Below are positions 8,397-25,824 of a DNA stretch of 44,276 bases, piece by piece. The notes below the pieces were generated by a model that was not told the DNA's origin, searched no databases, and saw only the letters and a program-made list of their open reading frames with translations. The position numbers were made by a program, and so were the translations under genes. The number at the start of each line of letters is the position of its first letter. Position 1 is the first letter of the stretch. Source of the DNA: Thermogemmatispora onikobensis (GTDB taxonomy: Bacteria; Chloroflexota; Ktedonobacteria; Ktedonobacterales; Ktedonobacteraceae); assembly GCF_001748285.1 (NCBI RefSeq), contig NZ_BDGT01000041.1:1-44276 (forward strand). The letters run 5' to 3'.

Positions 8397-11300
8397 TCAA
8401 GGGTCAGGGCAGGGGGTAGCATCGGCCTCGATAGCCATCTCTTCTGACGTCGAGGCGGTGGGCGTCGGCGTTGGGGCCAGCGTCGGCTCCTCCCCCGGTT
8501 CGCGCACACTGATCTCCAGGCGGCCATCGACTGCTGTCACATGCACGACGCCTGGCTTAGGAATATTGCCCATCAAAATGCGCAAACTGAGCGGTACGGT
8601 CAGCAAGCGCTCGATGGCCCGACGCAGCGGACGCGCTCCCTGGGTACGGCTAAAGCCCTCTTTACAGAGCAGATCGATGGCGCTCTCATCGGCCTGTAAC
8701 GTCAATCCCTGCTCCAGCAGGCGCGAGGCCAGCTCGTTCATCTGCAGGCGCGTAATCGCCCGCGCATGCTCCTGCGTCAAGGGGTGGAAGATGACCACCT
8801 CGTCGATGCGGCTCAGAAACTCCGGACGGAAGGTCTGGCGCAGGCGCTCCATTAGCTGCTCGCGCTGCATCTCCTCCAGAGAGGTCTTACTGGCGGCGCG
8901 GAAGCCGCTTGGGAGCGAGCGCCCCAGCATATCGGTGCCGACGTTGGAGGTCATAATCCAGATAGCATGCTGGGCGTCGACCGTGTGTCCCTGAGCGTCA
9001 GTCAGGCGTCCGGCGTCGAAGACCTGCAGGAAGAGATCAAAGACCTCGGGATGAGCCTTCTCCAGTTCGTCCAGGAGGACAACGCAGTGCGGACGGCGGC
9101 GCAGCTTGCCAGTGAGCTGCCCCTCCTGATCGTAGCCGATGTAGCCTGGTGGGGCGCCGACCATGCGTGAGACGGCATGCTTCTCCATGTACTCCGACAT
9201 ATCCACACGGATCAGATATTCATCGGAGCCAAAGACCTCGGCAGCCAAAGCCCGCGCCAGCTCGGTCTTACCAACACCCGTCGGTCCCAGGAAGAGGAAA
9301 ACCCCTGCGGGACGATTGCGCGGCTTCAAGCCGGCCCGCGCCACTTGAATCGCCTGGGTCACGCGCCGAATGGCCTCGTCCTGACCGATCACGCGGGCTT
9401 TCAGCCGGCTCTCCAGATTGAGCAGGCGATCGCGCTCCTCGCGGCCCGGCGCATTCACCGGGATACCGGTGCGCGCCGAGATCACTTCGGCCACCGTGGC
9501 CGCCGTGATCACCGGCTCCTCGCCCAGCTCATCGCGGTTGTCCTGCTCGATCGATTCATCCTCCACCCAGAAGACCCGCGCCTGCGAGCAAGCCTCGTCC
9601 AGGACACTGCAGGCCTTGTCGGGCAGGCGCAAGTTGGGCAGATACTGGACCGAGAGATGGACGGCGGCCTGGAGGGCCTCCTCGGTGATGCTGACATGGT
9701 GATGCTGCTCGTAGAGTTCACGCATCCCCCGCAGGACCTGCAGCGCCTCCTCCGGAGACGGCTCTTCGATCATGATTGGACGCAGGCGACGCTCCATCGC
9801 TGCATCCTTCTCGATCATGCGGTACTCTTGCGGGGTGGTGGCCCCAATACAACGCAGACGGCCCCCGGCCAGGGCCGGCTTGAGGATGCCGGCGGCGTCG
9901 ATGCTGCCATCGGCGGCGCGTCCGGTGCCGATCAGCAGATGCATTTCATCAATAAAGAGGATGATGTTGCCGCTGTTCTCCGCCTCCTCCAGCACCTTGA
10001 GCAGCCGCTCCTCAAATTCGCCGCGGTACTTGGTGCCGGCTACCAGTGAGCTGGCGGACAGCTCGATGAGGCGCTTGCCGCGCAGCTCCGGTGGCACCCG
10101 GCCCTCGACGATGCGCTGGGCCAGGCCCCCGACAATGGTCGTCTTCCCCACGCCCGAGTCGCCAATCAGGATCGGGTTGTTGCGATCCTTGAGCATCATG
10201 GTCTGCATCAGCAGGCGCAGCTCTTTCTCGCGTCCAATGAGCGGAGGCAGCTGCTTCAGGCTGGCCTGGCGCGTCAGATCGCGGCCCAGGCGCTCCAGGA
10301 GCGAGTTGCCGGCCCGTGGCGCTGGTTCGGCCAGGCTGAAGCCCGCTGGCATCTCCACCGCCGGCGGCTGATGCGGCTCCGCAGAAGGAGCCAGCTCTAG
10401 CAGGGCATGGGCCTCGCTCGCCATGATCAACTCAATCAGTTGCTCGGGATTGATGCCGATCTGAGTCAGCAGGTTGTGAGTCACGCCATCACCCTCGCTG
10501 AGCACAGCGCGCGCAATGGCGCGTTCGTCGATCATGGTGGCACCGGCACTGATGGCATTGCGCTCGGCAGTCAGCAGGATCTCTTTACAGCGCCGCGTTG
10601 GCAGGATCGGCGTGTCGCTGGTGGCCTTGCCGCTGCCCAGGGCGCTACGAATGACATCGCGCACCTGCTTGGGCGAGAAATTGAGGCTCCGCAGGGCATC
10701 CTGGGTACAGCCTCCATCAAGCTTGGTCAGAGCGATGAAGAGATGGGGCGTCCCCAGATAGTCCTTGCGCATGCGCCGCGCTTCCGCCAGGGCGATGCTG
10801 AGCACCTCCTCGAGGAAGCGCCGGTCAAGGGCGTGTGACGAAGATGGCAGCGAGGGGATCAGTGGCTCTTCCTCCTCTTCAAAGATATCGACGTAGTCGG
10901 CGGGATTGCGCTCGGGCAGACCAAAGCTCAAACGCAACAGCGGGTCACCGTAGAGCTGGAAGGAAATCCAGGCTGCTTGCTCAGGCCGACGCTGGGCCAG
11001 CACGGCACGACTGCGCCTGACCGCCTCGCCAATCGCTACCCCATCACTCAACTCCTGATAGAGGAGCACGGCAAACTCTCGAATGCGCGCGGTCGGCAGA
11101 GGCCAGCGCAGGACGACGACCGCCCCCGCCCCGGCTTCGATCAGGCGCCGGGCCAGGCGCTGCAGTAGCTCCTCACGCTCTGGCTGGCTGGCTGGCCCCA
11201 CTCCCACGCCCGGCGCAGGCAGCCCACTCCCCCCACGCCCTCCCGAGCGCTCGCCTTCGTAGTGACTGATAAAAACCAGGGGACGCCGCGGCAAGAGCTG

Positions 11301-12083
11301 AAAGAGCTGGGCCGCCGCTTCGCCGTCGAGCCGCGAGCTGCCTGCCAGAGCCAGCATCGGCTCGCCCGCTACCAGTAACGGCCCCACACCAGCATAGTGA
11401 ATGACCTGCGGCGGCTCGCTGCTGATACGCATGCGCATGTCAAGCTGGTTGGCTTGCTGACGATAGAGGATCGTGCGCCCGATCGCTTCGGGCAGGGCAG
11501 TGCACAACGCGGCTACCTCCTCTTCCGCCACGCTGCGCTCACCCGTCGGATTGACAAGGAAGAGGATGGAGAGACCCGCCTGGTCGCGCCTCCCCATTTT
11601 GCGCTGCACCCGCTCCGTTAGCGGCGCCAGCCGCTCTGGCCGCGCCTCGCCCACCAGGCGGCTCACGCTCAGCCGCTGACAGAGAAAGGAGCTTGGGCGC
11701 ATGCTCCCATCAAAGCAAAGCTCCCAGGGGATCTCGGGGGTGTTGGTGTCAAGCACGAGGGGGAGATCAAGATGCCGCAGCGCCTCCTGCAACGGCAATG
11801 GCAGCAACTGCTCAAAGAGAAAGCGCCCCAGAGCCTGTACCGAATCGTTGACCGCGCCCAGCTTCATTGTCTGGCGCTTGCTCTCGGCCAGAGCCTGCGT
11901 CTGCATGTATTGAGTCACGGCCTGCAAACTGCGCCTGAGCCGCTCTTTCAGCTCAGGGGTGATCTCCGTGACGTAGTCGCGCCCTTCCTTGCTACCTTCC
12001 CTGGCAGAATACTCAGGCAGGTCAAGCCGGAAACGATAGACGCTTTCAGTGCGTATGATACTCAAGAGCGCCGGCAATTCCAT
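8397..12083 (-). CDS. CHAT-like domain fused to Clp/AAA+ unfoldase
   Basis: This 1228-residue protein has three parts. Residues about 90-390 match the CHAT caspase-like fold: PEIPWELC, a GLSILFLVNPTG strand, HYAGVG, then SHYEGE, and a C-terminal GAGAVVVLRWPLP strand with YGDPLLRL. The positions of the catalytic dyad are changed: Val233 stands where CHAT proteases have His in AGHG, and Tyr275 where they have Cys. Residues about 412-555 are a Clp N-domain. Two AAA+ modules follow, with Walker A at 641-648 (GDSGVGKT) and 933-940 (GPTGVGKT), Walker B in each (LFIDEMH, LLDELEK) and FRPEFLSRIDE in the second. There is no long ClpB-type middle domain. SGF occupies roughly the place of the ClpP-docking tripeptide. 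It is probably an ATP-driven unfoldase whose dead CHAT domain binds clients. The start at 12083 has only a weak purine-rich site. Confidence 0.88.
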   Translation of the reverse strand: MELPALLSIIRTESVYRFRLDLPEYSAREGSKEGRDYVTEITPELKERLRRSLQAVTQYMQTQALAESKRQTMKLGAVNDSVQALGRFLFEQLLPLPLQEALRHLDLPLVLDTNTPEIPWELCFDGSMRPSSFLCQRLSVSRLVGEARPERLAPLTERVQRKMGRRDQAGLSILFLVNPTGERSVAEEEVAALCTALPEAIGRTILYRQQANQLDMRMRISSEPPQVIHYAGVGPLLVAGEPMLALAGSSRLDGEAAAQLFQLLPRRPLVFISHYEGERSGGRGGSGLPAPGVGVGPASQPEREELLQRLARRLIEAGAGAVVVLRWPLPTARIREFAVLLYQELSDGVAIGEAVRRSRAVLAQRRPEQAAWISFQLYGDPLLRLSFGLPERNPADYVDIFEEEEEPLIPSLPSSSHALDRRFLEEVLSIALAEARRMRKDYLGTPHLFIALTKLDGGCTQDALRSLNFSPKQVRDVIRSALGSGKATSDTPILPTRRCKEILLTAERNAISAGATMIDERAIARAVLSEGDGVTHNLLTQIGINPEQLIELIMASEAHALLELAPSAEPHQPPAVEMPAGFSLAEPAPRAGNSLLERLGRDLTRQASLKQLPPLIGREKELRLLMQTMMLKDRNNPILIGDSGVGKTTIVGGLAQRIVEGRVPPELRGKRLIELSASSLVAGTKYRGEFEERLLKVLEEAENSGNIILFIDEMHLLIGTGRAADGSIDAAGILKPALAGGRLRCIGATTPQEYRMIEKDAAMERRLRPIMIEEPSPEEALQVLRGMRELYEQHHHVSITEEALQAAVHLSVQYLPNLRLPDKACSVLDEACSQARVFWVEDESIEQDNRDELGEEPVITAATVAEVISARTGIPVNAPGREERDRLLNLESRLKARVIGQDEAIRRVTQAIQVARAGLKPRNRPAGVFLFLGPTGVGKTELARALAAEVFGSDEYLIRVDMSEYMEKHAVSRMVGAPPGYIGYDQEGQLTGKLRRRPHCVVLLDELEKAHPEVFDLFLQVFDAGRLTDAQGHTVDAQHAIWIMTSNVGTDMLGRSLPSGFRAASKTSLEEMQREQLMERLRQTFRPEFLSRIDEVVIFHPLTQEHARAITRLQMNELASRLLEQGLTLQADESAIDLLCKEGFSRTQGARPLRRAIERLLTVPLSLRILMGNIPKPGVVHVTAVDGRLEISVREPGEEPTLAPTPTPTASTSEEMAIEADATPCPDP

Positions 12084-12148
12084 GAGTTCTTCTCTTCTAC
12101 TATCTTCCCAGATTAGCTAGCCCTGAGAATACAACCTACTGCAAGAGC

Positions 12149-12177
12149 AGTATATCCCAAGCATGAGCCGCTGGCAA
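12149..12177 (-). promoter_or_regulatory. Promoter for the CHAT-Clp gene
   Basis: On the minus strand TTGCCA (12172-12177) and TATACT (12149-12154) are exactly 17 bases apart. The leader before the ATG at 12083 would be about 60 bases. Apart from this site and the hairpin at 12302-12377, the 319-base gap from 12084 to 12402 shows nothing else. Confidence 0.65.
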
Positions 12178-12402: not shown

Positions 12403-15246
12403 CTATACGCCGAGGCGTGGGTAGCAGCTGCTCTGGGTATCTGCCGCTTGCCCGTGGCCCTGGCTGCCGCCAGCTGACAGGCTGCGCGGTGTGACGAGCA
12501 GGTCGCTGGTCAAGAGAGTATCGACGTGGGTCCCGGCCAGCTTGAGCTGGCTGCAAGGATCAGGCGGCAGAATGGTGACATCCAGCTCCGGGTAGGTGCC
12601 CGCCTGACGCTGGACCAGCAGGGAATAGTGTCCCTTATTGAGAGGAGGCACATACCAGGAGAGGGTGACGGTCATGGTGCAGTTCTTGGGCACCACGACC
12701 CAGCCACCAAACATGGCCCGCCCCGGCACGTCGCTGACGGTGTTGGTCGGTGGCCCCACCTTGTCCAGCGGGTGCCAGTCGCCCGGGTTCTCGTCGCTCA
12801 GGGTCGGCGAGGCTGCCCCCGGCTGATATTGCCCCGCTGGACACATCAGCTCGTCGTGCGGATAGACGACGGTCGCGTTGCAGGCCGGCAGTGGCCCCCC
12901 GCAGAGAGGAATGCCGCTGTCGAAGCCGTCGCCGTTCAAGAATTTGCTGTTGGGCGGGACGTAGATGCGTACGTAGTCGCGATAGGTGTCGTAGCCATAC
13001 ACTGGCCCGGTATCGGTGTAGGCCAGGCGGAGCTGGAGATAGTGGGTGGCTCCGCCATTGGCGTCCAGCGTTACAACATCGTGAATGAGGGTCCGCACAT
13101 ACTGCGAGGCTTTGGTGGCGTTCAGGTTGGCCTGCACAATAGAGAGGCCATCGTGACTGGTCGAGCGGTCCATCTGCGCTCCGTAGCCGTACTGGATGAG
13201 CAGCTGCTCGACGTGCGGATCGGTGACATAGATTTCGATGTCTCTGGTCGTGAGGTCGTAGAGGGCCTCATGGGCAATGGCCAGGATCTCATCAGGAGGG
13301 GCATGACGTACATGGTCGAGCAGGGTCTGAGCCAGGCGCGAGGTGAAGAGCTTGCGCGCCTGACCGGAATCGTCGACATGCTGGACGATTTGCTGCTTGC
13401 GCACCCCCTCGCTGTCGAGCTGGTAGAAGTGGAGGCGATCTTCGAGGTTGAGAGCAGTGATGGTCTCGTTGTAGCCCGGCACGGTGATCGGGCCAATGAT
13501 CTGCAAGACGTGCTCGATGAAGAAGGGGGTCAGGGCAATGACTCCGTCGACGTGCCGCCCTACCTCACGCTGATAGGTCTCAATGGCCAGCTGCCCTGTG
13601 GTGGGGAAGTCCGCCGAGAGATTGGAGTCGCGTAGCCCCCAGTTGGCAAAGGGCCACCAGGAGCGATACGGCTCGGGGGCTAGCTGACCCAGGGTCGGAC
13701 TGCCAGAGGTGTATTCGACGAAGGAGATGTCTTTGAGCGAGAAGGGCGCAATGCGGCCCGCGTTGATGGTCAGCTCACCATACTGGCCGGTGAAGCCGCC
13801 GGATGGCCGTAGCTCAGAGCGATCCATTGTCTGCACCAGATAGGTGCGCGGCTTGTCTACTCCCAATAACCAGCCAGCGGCGTCGAGCAGCTGGCGCGCC
13901 TGGCCGAGGCTCTGCTGGAGGATGGGTAGCATTTGCAGGAGCTGCTGCACCTGCTGCCGTTGACTGCTGCTGAGGGGCAGGGCCTCCAGCGAGAGGCCCT
14001 GACTCTGGGTCCCGATGTCTCGCAATGAGGGCATGATGTCGTCTATGGTTCGTCCAAGGAGAGTGAGCATGTCCTGGGTCACCAGTGGTTTGCTCGAATC
14101 GCTGAGGAGCGGCCCCTGAAAGTGCGGGGCCAGGCTCCTGACCGCTGGGATGAGCTTGAGGCCAATGACGCTGACGTCTACGCCGATCTGAGCCGCAGCT
14201 CGGGCCGAGCTGACCTGCAGCTGATAGTGCGGAAAGAGCGAAATAACAGTGTGGATGAGGGCAGAGTGGTCAATGGTGTCGCGTGCTCTGGTAAAGGATT
14301 GCTGGGCCTGCTGCAGCTCTTGGGCAGCCTGGTTCAGTTTGCTGGCCTCGAAGAGACTGGATGGATGGGATTTAGCCCCGTTGAAGATGGTCTTGAGGGC
14401 CAGCAGGTGCTCAACGCCCGCGGAGGCCTCTCCACGAAGGGTGCTATAGGTCAGATAGGCTTGCAGTCCTACGGCCAGCCCACTGACAATGGGCAGAGCG
14501 ATACCGAGCAAAAGGATCACAAGGAGCACAAGGGCCTTGAGGCGTTGCTTCCCTGTCCCATAGTGCGCCTGCTTCCAGAGGCGTCCTGGCCACTGGGGAG
14601 GGCGCAGACCACGGGCGGAACGGCGCCGTCTCCCCATCGCTTCGTGAACCACCCTTCCCTCTTGTGGTGGCTGATCCTGGGGAACTGGCTCCTGTGCTCC
14701 CAGCTGGGTGGCCTGCCGCCCTTCCTGCAGTGTAGCTATGTCTGGAGTCGCCAGAGGGAGCGTTTCGGCCTCGGCCAGTGGAGAGGCCGCCGGGGTCACC
14801 GCCGCGGGAGCGCTGGCCAACGGCAGGGTCTCGGCTTCGCTGAGGGCGGCCTGGCGCCTTTCCTCTCTACGCTCGACGGCTCTGCTCTCAGGCGCTGCTG
14901 ACTCTGGCCCTGGCTTGTCAGTACTGTCTGGGAGCGCTCCGGGAAAGGCAACCGGGGCCGGCCCGGCCCGCAGCAGGGAGGACCAGGCTGCAGCCGCTCG
15001 CTCGATGGCAGCCCGCGCCTCATCGCTGGCACGCTGCTCCACGGCCCTGGCCTCCGCCATACTCTGCATTTTGATCGTGTCTTCGTCCGCCAGACTGCTC
15101 ACCTCTGTCGCTGGCCGCGCCCCTTCTCCTTCCTCCGTCCCCGGGGAGGCAAGAGGGCCACTCAGGACAGGCTTCTCCTGCGGATTGAGCTGATCCGCTG
15201 TTTCCTCGCGCTTTGGATGATCGCTATTGATAAGCATATCAGACAT
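12403..15246 (-). CDS. DUF4012-domain membrane protein
   Basis: The protein has 947 residues. The first 200 or so are low-complexity and rich in Ala, Glu and Pro, with the segment EAETLPLA repeated twice, suggesting a disordered cytoplasmic tail. One transmembrane helix lies near 233-262, and the rest should be outside the membrane. The DUF4012 signature is at about 478-490 (ELRPSGGFTGQYG). DUF4012 proteins occur widely in Actinobacteria and Chloroflexota, often near polysaccharide or cell-envelope genes; none has a proven activity that I can name. The start at 15246 has TGAGGTAA five bases upstream. It is co-directional with the genes at 8397 and 15453, but the gaps and its downstream hairpin argue for a separate transcript. 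Confidence 0.85.
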   Translation of the reverse strand: MSDMLINSDHPKREETADQLNPQEKPVLSGPLASPGTEEGEGARPATEVSSLADEDTIKMQSMAEARAVEQRASDEARAAIERAAAAWSSLLRAGPAPVAFPGALPDSTDKPGPESAAPESRAVERREERRQAALSEAETLPLASAPAAVTPAASPLAEAETLPLATPDIATLQEGRQATQLGAQEPVPQDQPPQEGRVVHEAMGRRRRSARGLRPPQWPGRLWKQAHYGTGKQRLKALVLLVILLLGIALPIVSGLAVGLQAYLTYSTLRGEASAGVEHLLALKTIFNGAKSHPSSLFEASKLNQAAQELQQAQQSFTRARDTIDHSALIHTVISLFPHYQLQVSSARAAAQIGVDVSVIGLKLIPAVRSLAPHFQGPLLSDSSKPLVTQDMLTLLGRTIDDIMPSLRDIGTQSQGLSLEALPLSSSQRQQVQQLLQMLPILQQSLGQARQLLDAAGWLLGVDKPRTYLVQTMDRSELRPSGGFTGQYGELTINAGRIAPFSLKDISFVEYTSGSPTLGQLAPEPYRSWWPFANWGLRDSNLSADFPTTGQLAIETYQREVGRHVDGVIALTPFFIEHVLQIIGPITVPGYNETITALNLEDRLHFYQLDSEGVRKQQIVQHVDDSGQARKLFTSRLAQTLLDHVRHAPPDEILAIAHEALYDLTTRDIEIYVTDPHVEQLLIQYGYGAQMDRSTSHDGLSIVQANLNATKASQYVRTLIHDVVTLDANGGATHYLQLRLAYTDTGPVYGYDTYRDYVRIYVPPNSKFLNGDGFDSGIPLCGGPLPACNATVVYPHDELMCPAGQYQPGAASPTLSDENPGDWHPLDKVGPPTNTVSDVPGRAMFGGWVVVPKNCTMTVTLSWYVPPLNKGHYSLLVQRQAGTYPELDVTILPPDPCSQLKLAGTHVDTLLTSDLLVTPRSLSAGGSQGHGQAADTQSSCYPRLGV

Positions 15247-15452: not shown

Positions 15453-16904
15453 TCAACCCTGGCGCTCGCCATTGAGTCTACGTGTGCTCAGATCCAGGCG
15501 CCGCGTTGGTCTGCCGCGGGCGCGGGCGGCGGGCGGATAGTAAGGGGTGGCAGCAGTGATGATGTCACCGATGCGCGCGAGGACCTGCAAGTAGCGCGTC
15601 CCAGAGCGATGGTAATGGGCGAAGAGCATCAGCAAATGATGGATGAGAATATCTGCTTCATCGGTATGACGCTCCAGGGTGATCTGTCCACCGATGGCTC
15701 CCTCGCCCTCGTGCAGCATGGCCTCCTCGCCTTGTTCGTCTAAGAGCAGATGGCGCGTATCTCGGCGGGGACGAGCCGGCCAGAGGAGCAGGGCCACTAC
15801 CCGCCCTTTGAGGCGCTGCTCGCGCAGACGTCCGGCCAGATAGCCGCCCAGTTTGTGGATCGCCGCACAGGTTTCGTCGGCATCGGCGGCGTGCTGGAAG
15901 CGAATGCGCGCATTCTGGCTCAGTGGCGGCGCATCGGGGATCACCAGGCTGTAGTCTTCACCCCGAGCCAGCTGGTGAAGCCAGCGCCCCAGACGGCCCA
16001 GGCGCCGTTCCAGTCCTTCGGGAGAGAGGGGGGCCACCTGCGCAAAGGTCGTGATGCCGAAGTCGCGCAGGTGAGCAACCAGCTCGGCCAGCGCTTCAAG
16101 ATCAAGGCGCTCGCCCCGGCCTTCCAACTCGGAGCTGCCCGCACGTAGGCCCGTTCCTTCGCTCTCGCCCTCGCGCCCACCCAGGGGACCAGGCTCGCTG
16201 CCATGCAGCTGGAGCAGCAGCGAGAGGGGCAGCGATTGCACAAAGGAGGCCTCACGACCCGGTGGAATATAGAGGATGCCCTGACGCCCGTCTTTGCGAC
16301 TCATAAGCGCGGCCAGCTCGGCAATGGTTTTGCCGTTGGCGATGCCGATGAGGGCCGTCAGGCCAAGGGCGGCAATCTCGCTGCTGAGCTGCTGCGCCAG
16401 GAGAATTGGCGAGGTGACGGGCTGAGGGCTGCCGCTCAGGTCGATAAAGGCATCGGCCAGAGGGACAGACTCAACGATGTGCGAACAGGCTCGATAGCGC
16501 TCGCGTAAGCGCTGCAAAACCGGCTGGTAGCGTTCGTAGGAGGCCGGCAGGAAGAGCGTGCGCGGGGCCAGACGATAGGCCCGACGCAAGGGCATGCCAG
16601 GGACAATGCCCAGGCGCACCGCGGCAGGGGAGGCGTCGATGACGCGGCCCGGCTCGTTCGGGCGCCCTGTGCCGGTGCCTACGACGAAAGGCAGGCCGCG
16701 CAGCGAGGGATTGGCCATTTCCTCCAGCGTACAATAGAAGTGCCGAATGCGGACATGCATGATCCCTTGACGCAGGCGGGCCTGCTCCGAGACTGCCCCT
16801 TTCTCTGTCGACGAGGCCGCCCCCAGTGGCCCACGCGCCGGGCGCTGCGCTGCCGCGTCACCAAGGATTGACGGATTCAACGTCCCTGACTGATCGTGCT
16901 CCAT
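15453..16904 (-). CDS. Catalytically dead Y-family DNA polymerase homologue (ImuB/DinB-like)
   Basis: The 483-residue protein aligns along DinB: HFYCTLEE after the first strand, LRGLPFVVG, then an ASPAAVRLGIVPGMP segment, a SYERYQP helix, FIDLSG, and a C-terminal little-finger region. The metal-binding acidic residues are replaced. The usual DxD of the first strand is R52-x-R54, and the usual DE pair is A150-D151. This is the pattern seen in ImuB-type proteins, which act as adaptors in translesion synthesis rather than as polymerases. No imuA, dnaE2 or lexA is present nearby. The first 45 residues are an extra N-terminal tail. The start at 16904 has AGAAGG at suitable distance. Expected partners are the beta clamp and another polymerase, which is inference. 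Confidence 0.82.
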   Translation of the reverse strand: MEHDQSGTLNPSILGDAAAQRPARGPLGAASSTEKGAVSEQARLRQGIMHVRIRHFYCTLEEMANPSLRGLPFVVGTGTGRPNEPGRVIDASPAAVRLGIVPGMPLRRAYRLAPRTLFLPASYERYQPVLQRLRERYRACSHIVESVPLADAFIDLSGSPQPVTSPILLAQQLSSEIAALGLTALIGIANGKTIAELAALMSRKDGRQGILYIPPGREASFVQSLPLSLLLQLHGSEPGPLGGREGESEGTGLRAGSSELEGRGERLDLEALAELVAHLRDFGITTFAQVAPLSPEGLERRLGRLGRWLHQLARGEDYSLVIPDAPPLSQNARIRFQHAADADETCAAIHKLGGYLAGRLREQRLKGRVVALLLWPARPRRDTRHLLLDEQGEEAMLHEGEGAIGGQITLERHTDEADILIHHLLMLFAHYHRSGTRYLQVLARIGDIITAATPYYPPAARARGRPTRRLDLSTRRLNGERQG

Positions 16905-25017: not shown

Positions 25018-25824
25018 ATGCTGGATACGGTGATGGCCCTGTGGAACCGCGGCTGTGCTTTGCGCTTCCTGCTGCTCACGCTGTTAGCGCTAGCAATCCT
25101 GCTAAGCTTTGGTCTGCCGATCTGGCTGGGTAATCAGCAAAGTCGGTCGCTCCCCTCCCAATCTCCAGCAGAGGGAGCACTGGCAGCTCAGACGCAGGGG
25201 CACATTGGCGAAAGCACCATGACGGTGCCCCTCCCACCCAGCATGACGCCGCCGGTCCAGATTGGTTCCACCCAGCCAGAAAGCAAGCTGAATATTCCGC
25301 CGTTTCCTCCCTGCAGCAGTCCCCTAACCATGCCGCAGCCGGGACCAACGGCCCTGCCTGTGGTCACGCCTACGGTCCACCCTCAACCACATCCTACGCC
25401 ACGGCCTCGACCATCTCCATCGCCTTCGCCCCAACCACAGCCCTCGCCGATACCGGCGCCTTCTCCTTCACCAACGCCAGCCCCAACGCCGACCCCCGCA
25501 CCCTCTCCTACGCCCACACCAACGCCGATACCCGCGCCTTCTCCTTCACCCACACCGCCTTCACCCACACCGACACCGACGCCTGCGCCTTCTCCCTCTC
25601 CTTCACCGCCCGCCCCCACAGCCACGCCTTCAGCTGCACCGACTCCATCACCAGACCCTGAGCCGACAGAAGCCCCTTTTCTGCCCACCACTCCCTCTGC
25701 CCACTCCACACTCACTCTCACCACGCGCCAAAAGCCCGCGCCGCTCGGGCACGAGCGCGGAGCAGCGGGTCAGCAAGCCAGCAGAACCGCCGCCCGAGCA
25801 ATGATCACACCAGGATCCAGATAA
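25018..25824 (+). CDS. Membrane-anchored proline/threonine/serine-rich protein
   Basis: The 268-residue protein has one N-terminal hydrophobic helix at about 16-38 and no lipobox. A polar stretch follows, then a long Pro/Thr/Ser-rich segment from about 118 to 218 built on PTP, PSP and PAP units with an imperfect 26-residue period. The C-terminus is basic and Ala-rich. It is likely anchored in the membrane with an extended rod reaching into or through the cell wall. The stop of the upstream gene is 45 bases away, so the two are probably co-transcribed. No enzymatic domain is seen. A surface substrate for the TgpA-type transglutaminase two genes upstream is only a guess. Confidence 0.7.
   Translation: MLDTVMALWNRGCALRFLLLTLLALAILLSFGLPIWLGNQQSRSLPSQSPAEGALAAQTQGHIGESTMTVPLPPSMTPPVQIGSTQPESKLNIPPFPPCSSPLTMPQPGPTALPVVTPTVHPQPHPTPRPRPSPSPSPQPQPSPIPAPSPSPTPAPTPTPAPSPTPTPTPIPAPSPSPTPPSPTPTPTPAPSPSPSPPAPTATPSAAPTPSPDPEPTEAPFLPTTPSAHSTLTLTTRQKPAPLGHERGAAGQQASRTAARAMITPGSR
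25380..25660 (+). repeat. Low-complexity repeats inside the proline-rich gene
   Basis: C-rich codon repeats encode the Pro/Thr/Ser rod. The block GCGCCTTCTCC recurs near 25456, 25534 and 25590, and the first two copies lie in a 78-base (26-codon) unit. Such tracts can change length by slippage. Confidence 0.7.

Follow-up and report, generated by a model that had tools for sequence, protein, structure and literature searches.

The 44,276-nucleotide stretch of Thermogemmatispora onikobensis DNA analyzed here (contig NZ_BDGT01000041.1), referred to as the window, contains on its minus strand at positions 8397..12083 an open reading frame (ORF) of 1228 amino acids, whose product, designated CHAT-Clp, is an Hsp100 protein whose front domain is of a new type. 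This domain is a CHAT caspase-like region that has lost both catalytic residues and precedes a two-ATPase Clp motor with intact motifs. The fusion had been noticed in an original prediction made from the nucleotide sequence, which gave the right coordinates and left the strand unstated; the observation is confirmed and found to be stronger than stated, since a dead caspase-fold protease is kept family-wide in Ktedonobacteraceae, presumably on the intake side of an unfolding motor. A literature search for a CHAT-Clp fusion revealed no published description. CHAT-Clp is read here as a Clp/Hsp100 unfoldase of the ClpA/ClpC type that is lineage-specific, occurs in single copy and lacks the M-domain, and we give an even chance to the proposal that its pseudo-CHAT binds a client or a partner without cutting it.

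Fold of the N-terminal region and loss of the catalytic dyad

Pfam assigns CHAT (PF12770) to residues 83-380 (10944-11837; this and all other features of the gene lie on the minus strand) over the entire model (1-289/289, E=2.9e-14, 53.6 bits, cutoff 24), bearing out the CHAT signatures read earlier in the N-terminus. When the N-terminal regions of the T. onikobensis protein and 23 orthologues were scanned alone, CHAT was matched in 24/24, with a best E of 3.4e-25. The pseudo-CHAT region as a whole, supported by Pfam, AlphaFold and Foldseek, comprises residues 1-386 (10926..12083), with the ATG at 12083. A sequence search of solved structures with the N-terminal 401 residues gave no match and hence a structure search was needed. 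An AlphaFold model of residues 1-401 obtained with the 24-sequence input (predicted local distance difference test, pLDDT, 71.5; predicted template modelling score, pTM, 0.76) had Csx29/TPR-CHAT, separase, SAVED-CHAT and gingipain among its top Foldseek matches in the PDB (E 7e-8 to 4e-5), together with ciliary central apparatus chains and the anti-sigma factor DdvA. This fold comparison had been set beforehand as a refutation test, and caspase-clan structures came out at the top. Sequence profile and predicted structure both support a caspase-clan fold of the N-terminal region.

Alignment by hhalign with two intact CHAT domains of other Chloroflexota (probability 99.8, E=3.9e-28) paired IHYAGVGPL of the pseudo-CHAT with IHYSGHAFF of the intact domains, and VFISHYEGE with VFLNACESA. 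This pairing places the catalytic His (AG[H]G) at V233 (codon 11385..11387) and the catalytic Cys at Y275 (codon 11259..11261), which are the positions originally proposed. The full-length alignment of 26 sequences (the T. onikobensis protein and 25 orthologues) has Pro in 17, Ala in 6 and Val in 3 at residue 233, and Tyr in 19, His in 6 and Thr in 1 at residue 275, so that His at 233 and Cys at 275 are each found in 0/26. The pair of residues that defines an active CHAT protease is thus absent. The neighbouring residue 274 is Cys in 3/26 scattered orthologues, none of which has His at 233, and no dyad restored at other positions was found in the orthologue alignments. Because His and Cys are gone in all 26 sequences, the loss of the dyad is most likely ancestral to the family Ktedonobacteraceae.

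Clp motor and the ClpP-docking loop

Behind the pseudo-CHAT, Pfam matches Clp_N (PF02861) in two stretches within residues 431-483, and alignment with other Clps extends this double repeat to about residues 424-575 (10359..10814). The rest of the protein is made up of AAA, AAA_lid_9, AAA_2 and ClpB_D2-small matches. The first AAA+ module (D1, residues 595-837, 9573..10301) carries Walker A GDSGVGKT (641-648), Walker B FIDE (710-713) and pore loop KYRG, and the second (D2 with ClpB_D2-small, residues 857-1190, 8514..9515) carries Walker A GPTGVGKT (933-940), Walker B LLDE and pore loop GYIG. In each module the full set of motifs (Walker A and B, pore loop, arginine and sensor) is preserved, in agreement with the two-ATPase Clp described earlier, and together with the D2-small domain these motifs identify a class I Clp/Hsp100 protein. 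By its motifs the unfoldase motor is intact, and ATPase and unfolding activities are predicted.

CHAT-Clp shares with ClpC and ClpA the order Clp_N-D1-D2, the Walker motifs, the pore loops and a GF loop at the ClpP-docking site, and its best PDB sequence matches are Bacillus ClpC; it differs from them in the 400-residue pseudo-CHAT in front. Alignment with other Clps revealed no M-domain between D1 and D2, just a short variable linker, whereas an M-domain is present in ClpC, the ClpE-like protein and ClpB of T. onikobensis. CHAT-Clp is not a ClpC, since it has this short linker, groups in a separate D2 clade apart from T. onikobensis ClpC, and lacks both the M-domain and the UVR motif of ClpC. 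Nor is it a ClpB, which has a long coiled-coil M-domain and no ClpP loop: the M-domain is missing, the loop is present, and the ClpB model scores 752 against a cutoff of 1232 bits. The stand-alone disaggregases ClpG, ClpK and ClpL likewise carry an extra domain ahead of the motor, which in ClpG is a targeting domain (PMC10641755). However, the N1 domain of ClpG is a small zinc-binding domain and the front of CHAT-Clp a caspase-clan fold, and with NCBIfam ClpG and ClpK scores of 567 and 611 CHAT-Clp falls far under the 1900-bit cutoff of both curated models.

At the ClpP-docking position, located by alignment with other Clps, stands SGF (residues 1059-1061, 8901..8909), from which weak or absent ClpP docking had been suggested; ClpX as well as T. 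onikobensis ClpC and its ClpE-like protein have IGF there. The SGF motif is indeed present, but not universal: within xGFR the first residue is Ser in 21/26, Val, Leu or Met in 4/26 and Gly in 1/26. The two residues GF never vary, and ClpC has a longer loop at this position. In ClpX, changes of the first residue (even I268L) or small changes of loop length impair ClpP binding (PMC7112951), and by analogy weak ClpP docking in the SGF species is plausible. At the same time, as GF is invariant and the loop canonical in some species, we argue from the alignment that the docking site has not simply been lost. The T. onikobensis genome contains two ClpP genes (on C53 and C1). A divergent fourth Clp paralogue of 902 amino acids was also observed in T. 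onikobensis (genome G000, C2:213006-215033; L120:4926-7634, minus strand), having FEGIEKAH as D2 Walker B and PSGFGSGF as docking loop, and its D2 ATPase is probably impaired, as judged from these motifs.

Distribution and phylogeny

CHAT-Clp is present in 28/29 genomes of Ktedonobacteraceae, with one copy each, the sole genome without it being 76% complete. In a Chloroflexota survey with four candidates scored per genome, it was found at E<=1e-18 in 0/371 other Chloroflexota, which included other families of the same order; beyond Chloroflexota the search consisted solely of scanning GTDB genomes for two conserved peptide patterns. Named records are from Thermogemmatispora, Ktedonobacter, Dictyobacter, Ktedonosporobacter, Ktedonospora, Thermosporothrix and Tengunoibacter, and since cultured type strains carry the gene, its product is directly accessible to testing. 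The only broken orthologue seen is that of Dictyobacter vulcani (G022; L066 / L126), which is broken up among several frames; the D1 portion that aligns is only 33% alike, and these frameshifts reflect either a pseudogene or an assembly error.

In a tree of D2 sequences, the CHAT-Clps form one clade (support 98/99) outside the Chloroflexota ClpC, ClpB and ClpE; branches in this part of the tree are long, so that any exact sister of the clade is tentative. A Clp of 748 amino acids without CHAT in genome G056 was considered as an unfused relative and set aside, as its place in the tree is unreliable on a very long branch. Clps of similar size in sister families (about 1015-1035 amino acids) were likewise considered as carriers of a further-decayed CHAT, and rejected because the extra domain of these Clps is a release-factor PCRF-type domain at the C-terminus. 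These odd Clps of the same order (L157:6681-9722, minus; L158:8115-11222, plus; L159:5940-9029, minus) are composed of D1-D2 without M-domain or Clp_N, followed by the PCRF domain, with Pfam E of 5e-15 and 3e-11 in the two scanned and L159 assigned by sequence resemblance. An unfoldase combined with a release-factor-like domain points to a possible connection with stalled ribosomes.

Constraint on the pseudo-CHAT

The folded CHAT segments have a ratio of non-synonymous to synonymous substitution rates (dN/dS) of 0.03-0.11 between Thermogemmatispora species, compared with about 0.01 for the D1-D2 motor and 0.2-0.5, where measurable, for the linker of residues 276-300. As its folded segments are under purifying selection, the pseudo-CHAT is still in use, though dead as a protease. 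The tightest constraint within it falls not on the former catalytic site, but on residues 187-219, with the pattern EEE.A.LC..LPE...R.ILYRQQANQLEMRMR. The most conserved stretch of the pseudo-CHAT in the alignments, ILYRQQANQLDMRMR (residues 205-219, 11427..11471), is a candidate interaction surface. In the orthologue alignment Cys194 is invariant and Cys135 nearly so.

Proposed function and alternatives

Clp N-domains are located at the entrance of Hsp100 rings, and pseudo-CHATs ahead of them would therefore be placed to capture something and feed it to the pore. Pseudo-enzymes commonly turn into binding modules; with the dyad lost and the fold kept, we infer that here a protease has been turned into a binder. 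In the proposed mechanism, six pseudo-CHAT domains would sit at the ring entrance on flexible linkers, where the former protease domain would grip a peptide or partner protein without cleavage, and the bound client would be passed beyond Clp_N to the pore loops and unfolded there at the expense of ATP; it may then be released or refolded or, alternatively, degraded by ClpP. That the dead fold recognises clients or triggers and hands them to the AAA+ ring was the original suggestion; it is consistent with the dN/dS of the CHAT segments and with the nearly frozen ILYRQQANQLEMRMR, and remains a reasonable hypothesis. In ClpG, the extra N-terminal domain targets aggregates and still works when transplanted (PMC10641755). 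Inactive caspase domains of bacterial conflict systems have been proposed as peptide-binding or as dominant-negative modules (PMC7159879). Among these, the MoxR-vWA systems resemble CHAT-Clp in having a dead caspase-like domain, for which peptide binding is proposed, alongside an AAA+ protein (PMC7159879), but they are conflict systems with varied effector parts, whereas CHAT-Clp is a two-ring Clp fusion and a core gene of one family. TPR-CHAT/Csx29 (Craspase) and separase, which share the caspase-clan fold and are among the best Foldseek matches, retain a His/Cys dyad and are active (Csx29: H615/C658; PMC10028731), whereas the pseudo-CHAT has lost both residues and has an unfoldase as partner domain. 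Should clients indeed be bound, CHAT-Clp would represent a further route to Clp specificity and would extend the CHAT fold to a task that involves no proteolysis and lies outside conflict systems.

Several observations weigh against a client-binding pseudo-CHAT. The template modelling (TM) score between the N-terminal model and its best PDB matches is about 0.5, and a model of such medium confidence (pLDDT 71.5) does not allow a groove to be drawn. The share of invariant columns per 50 residues is about 8-36% in the CHAT region vs 36-88% in D1-D2, a faster divergence that a largely structural or oligomerising function could explain as well. The CHAT might serve as a scaffold that binds no client and takes part in ring assembly, autoinhibition or localisation, standing in for the absent M-domain through which ClpC and ClpB are controlled. 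Retention of the fold while much of the CHAT sequence varies speaks for such a role, yet the segments ILYRQQANQLEMRMR and EEE.A.LC, both nearly invariant, have more the character of a specific contact than of overall fold maintenance; this is not decisive, and we consider the scaffold unlikely but worth keeping in mind.

Slightly less probable still is that the dead CHAT acts on active CHAT proteases of the same cell, or on their substrates, as a decoy or inhibitor: it would capture the clients of those proteases or heterodimerise with the proteases, for disassembly by the Clp motor. The T. onikobensis genome has five other CHAT matches, of which both aligned ones (C60, C24) keep His and Cys, and for enzyme domains that are inactive in bacterial conflict systems a decoy or dominant-negative function has been put forward (PMC7159879). 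However, no conserved genomic pairing with another CHAT gene was seen at the orthologous loci, and other Chloroflexota have CHAT proteins without the fusion.

The original prediction had also named immunity and cell-death systems as settings of CHAT proteases; in an immune reading, CHAT would sense an infection trigger and the Clp ring would execute the response. In favour of it, multicellular bacteria repeatedly carry CHAT and inactive caspase domains in their conflict systems (PMC7159879), and Ktedonobacteria are mycelial. Against this link stand the near-universal, single-copy and partly syntenic occurrence of the gene within one family, the low dN/dS of its motor, and its DUF4012 and Y-family polymerase neighbours; PADLOC matches, considered as a sign of defence, were rejected, being confined to generic AAA+ parts, so that no defence model is matched beyond a generic ATPase and the conserved neighbours are non-defence genes. 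We regard an immune role as improbable and, because distribution and conservation look like housekeeping, favour a cell-biological or proteostasis role. Least probable of all is a CHAT that still cleaves via a displaced nucleophile, such as the Cys274 of a few species, Cys135 or Cys194, given that Cys274 is sporadic, that no orthologue keeps His233, and that the predicted succession of secondary-structure elements puts Cys194 in a helix and not at the strand ends that form a clan CD active site.

A wider extension of the client-binding proposal can be entertained tentatively. Ktedonobacteria are filamentous or mycelial and spore-forming, and CHAT-Clp might be a family-wide core machine of this Chloroflexota lineage, in which a caspase-type protease, its activity lost for good, now serves a ring unfoldase as substrate receptor, constituting a new Hsp100 class with its own client set.

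Gene neighbourhood and 5' region

Upstream of CHAT-Clp and in the same direction lies a gene for a DUF4012 protein (12403..15246, minus strand, Pfam), which adjoins or is near CHAT-Clp on the same strand in most orthologous loci reaching that far. It is followed by a gene for a Y-family (ImpB/MucB/SamB) polymerase-like protein (15453..16904, minus strand, Pfam), found beyond DUF4012 in 13 orthologous loci, and a histidine kinase gene stands on the opposite side of CHAT-Clp in many. The locus is partly syntenic across the family.

A predicted sigma70-like promoter (TTGCCA, 17-base spacer, TATACT; 12149..12177, minus strand) was read from the upstream sequences, with TTGACAC/TATACT at a similar place upstream of many orthologues. 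Just before the ATG, most orthologues have the conserved leader motif GGGAAGATAGTAGAAGAGAAG (12089..12109, minus strand), which has a single match in the T. onikobensis genome and, among the 8 genomes searched, one match anywhere away from CHAT-Clp. Family-wide, GGGAAGATTGTGGAAGAGAAG stands before the ATG. The DNA around the start codon (window positions 11964-12173, minus strand) is frozen among Thermogemmatispora species, the 60 upstream bases being nearly identical, and in the first 40 codons four-fold synonymous changes are 0/18 or 0/17 in each of five comparisons, compared with roughly 0.1-0.5 further in. The leader RNA is no more stable in structure than its shuffles (z +0.83), no CIRCE-like elements were found upstream of CHAT-Clp, and an Rfam scan of the window returned two tRNAs and nothing else. 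Distribution, synteny, and the gene's own promoter and leader constitute the pattern of a core gene and not of a defence island.

Two further frames were observed. In genome G056 (L122:2992-7875, minus strand), a frame of 1627 amino acids combines CHAT with nucleotide-cyclase, AAA_16 ATPase and TPR regions and a family-5 solute-binding protein. In the window at 25018-25824 (plus strand), an ORF of 268 amino acids has a hydrophobic N-terminus followed mostly by Pro/Thr/Ser repeats (PSPSPTP...), and its product looks like a surface-exposed linker protein.

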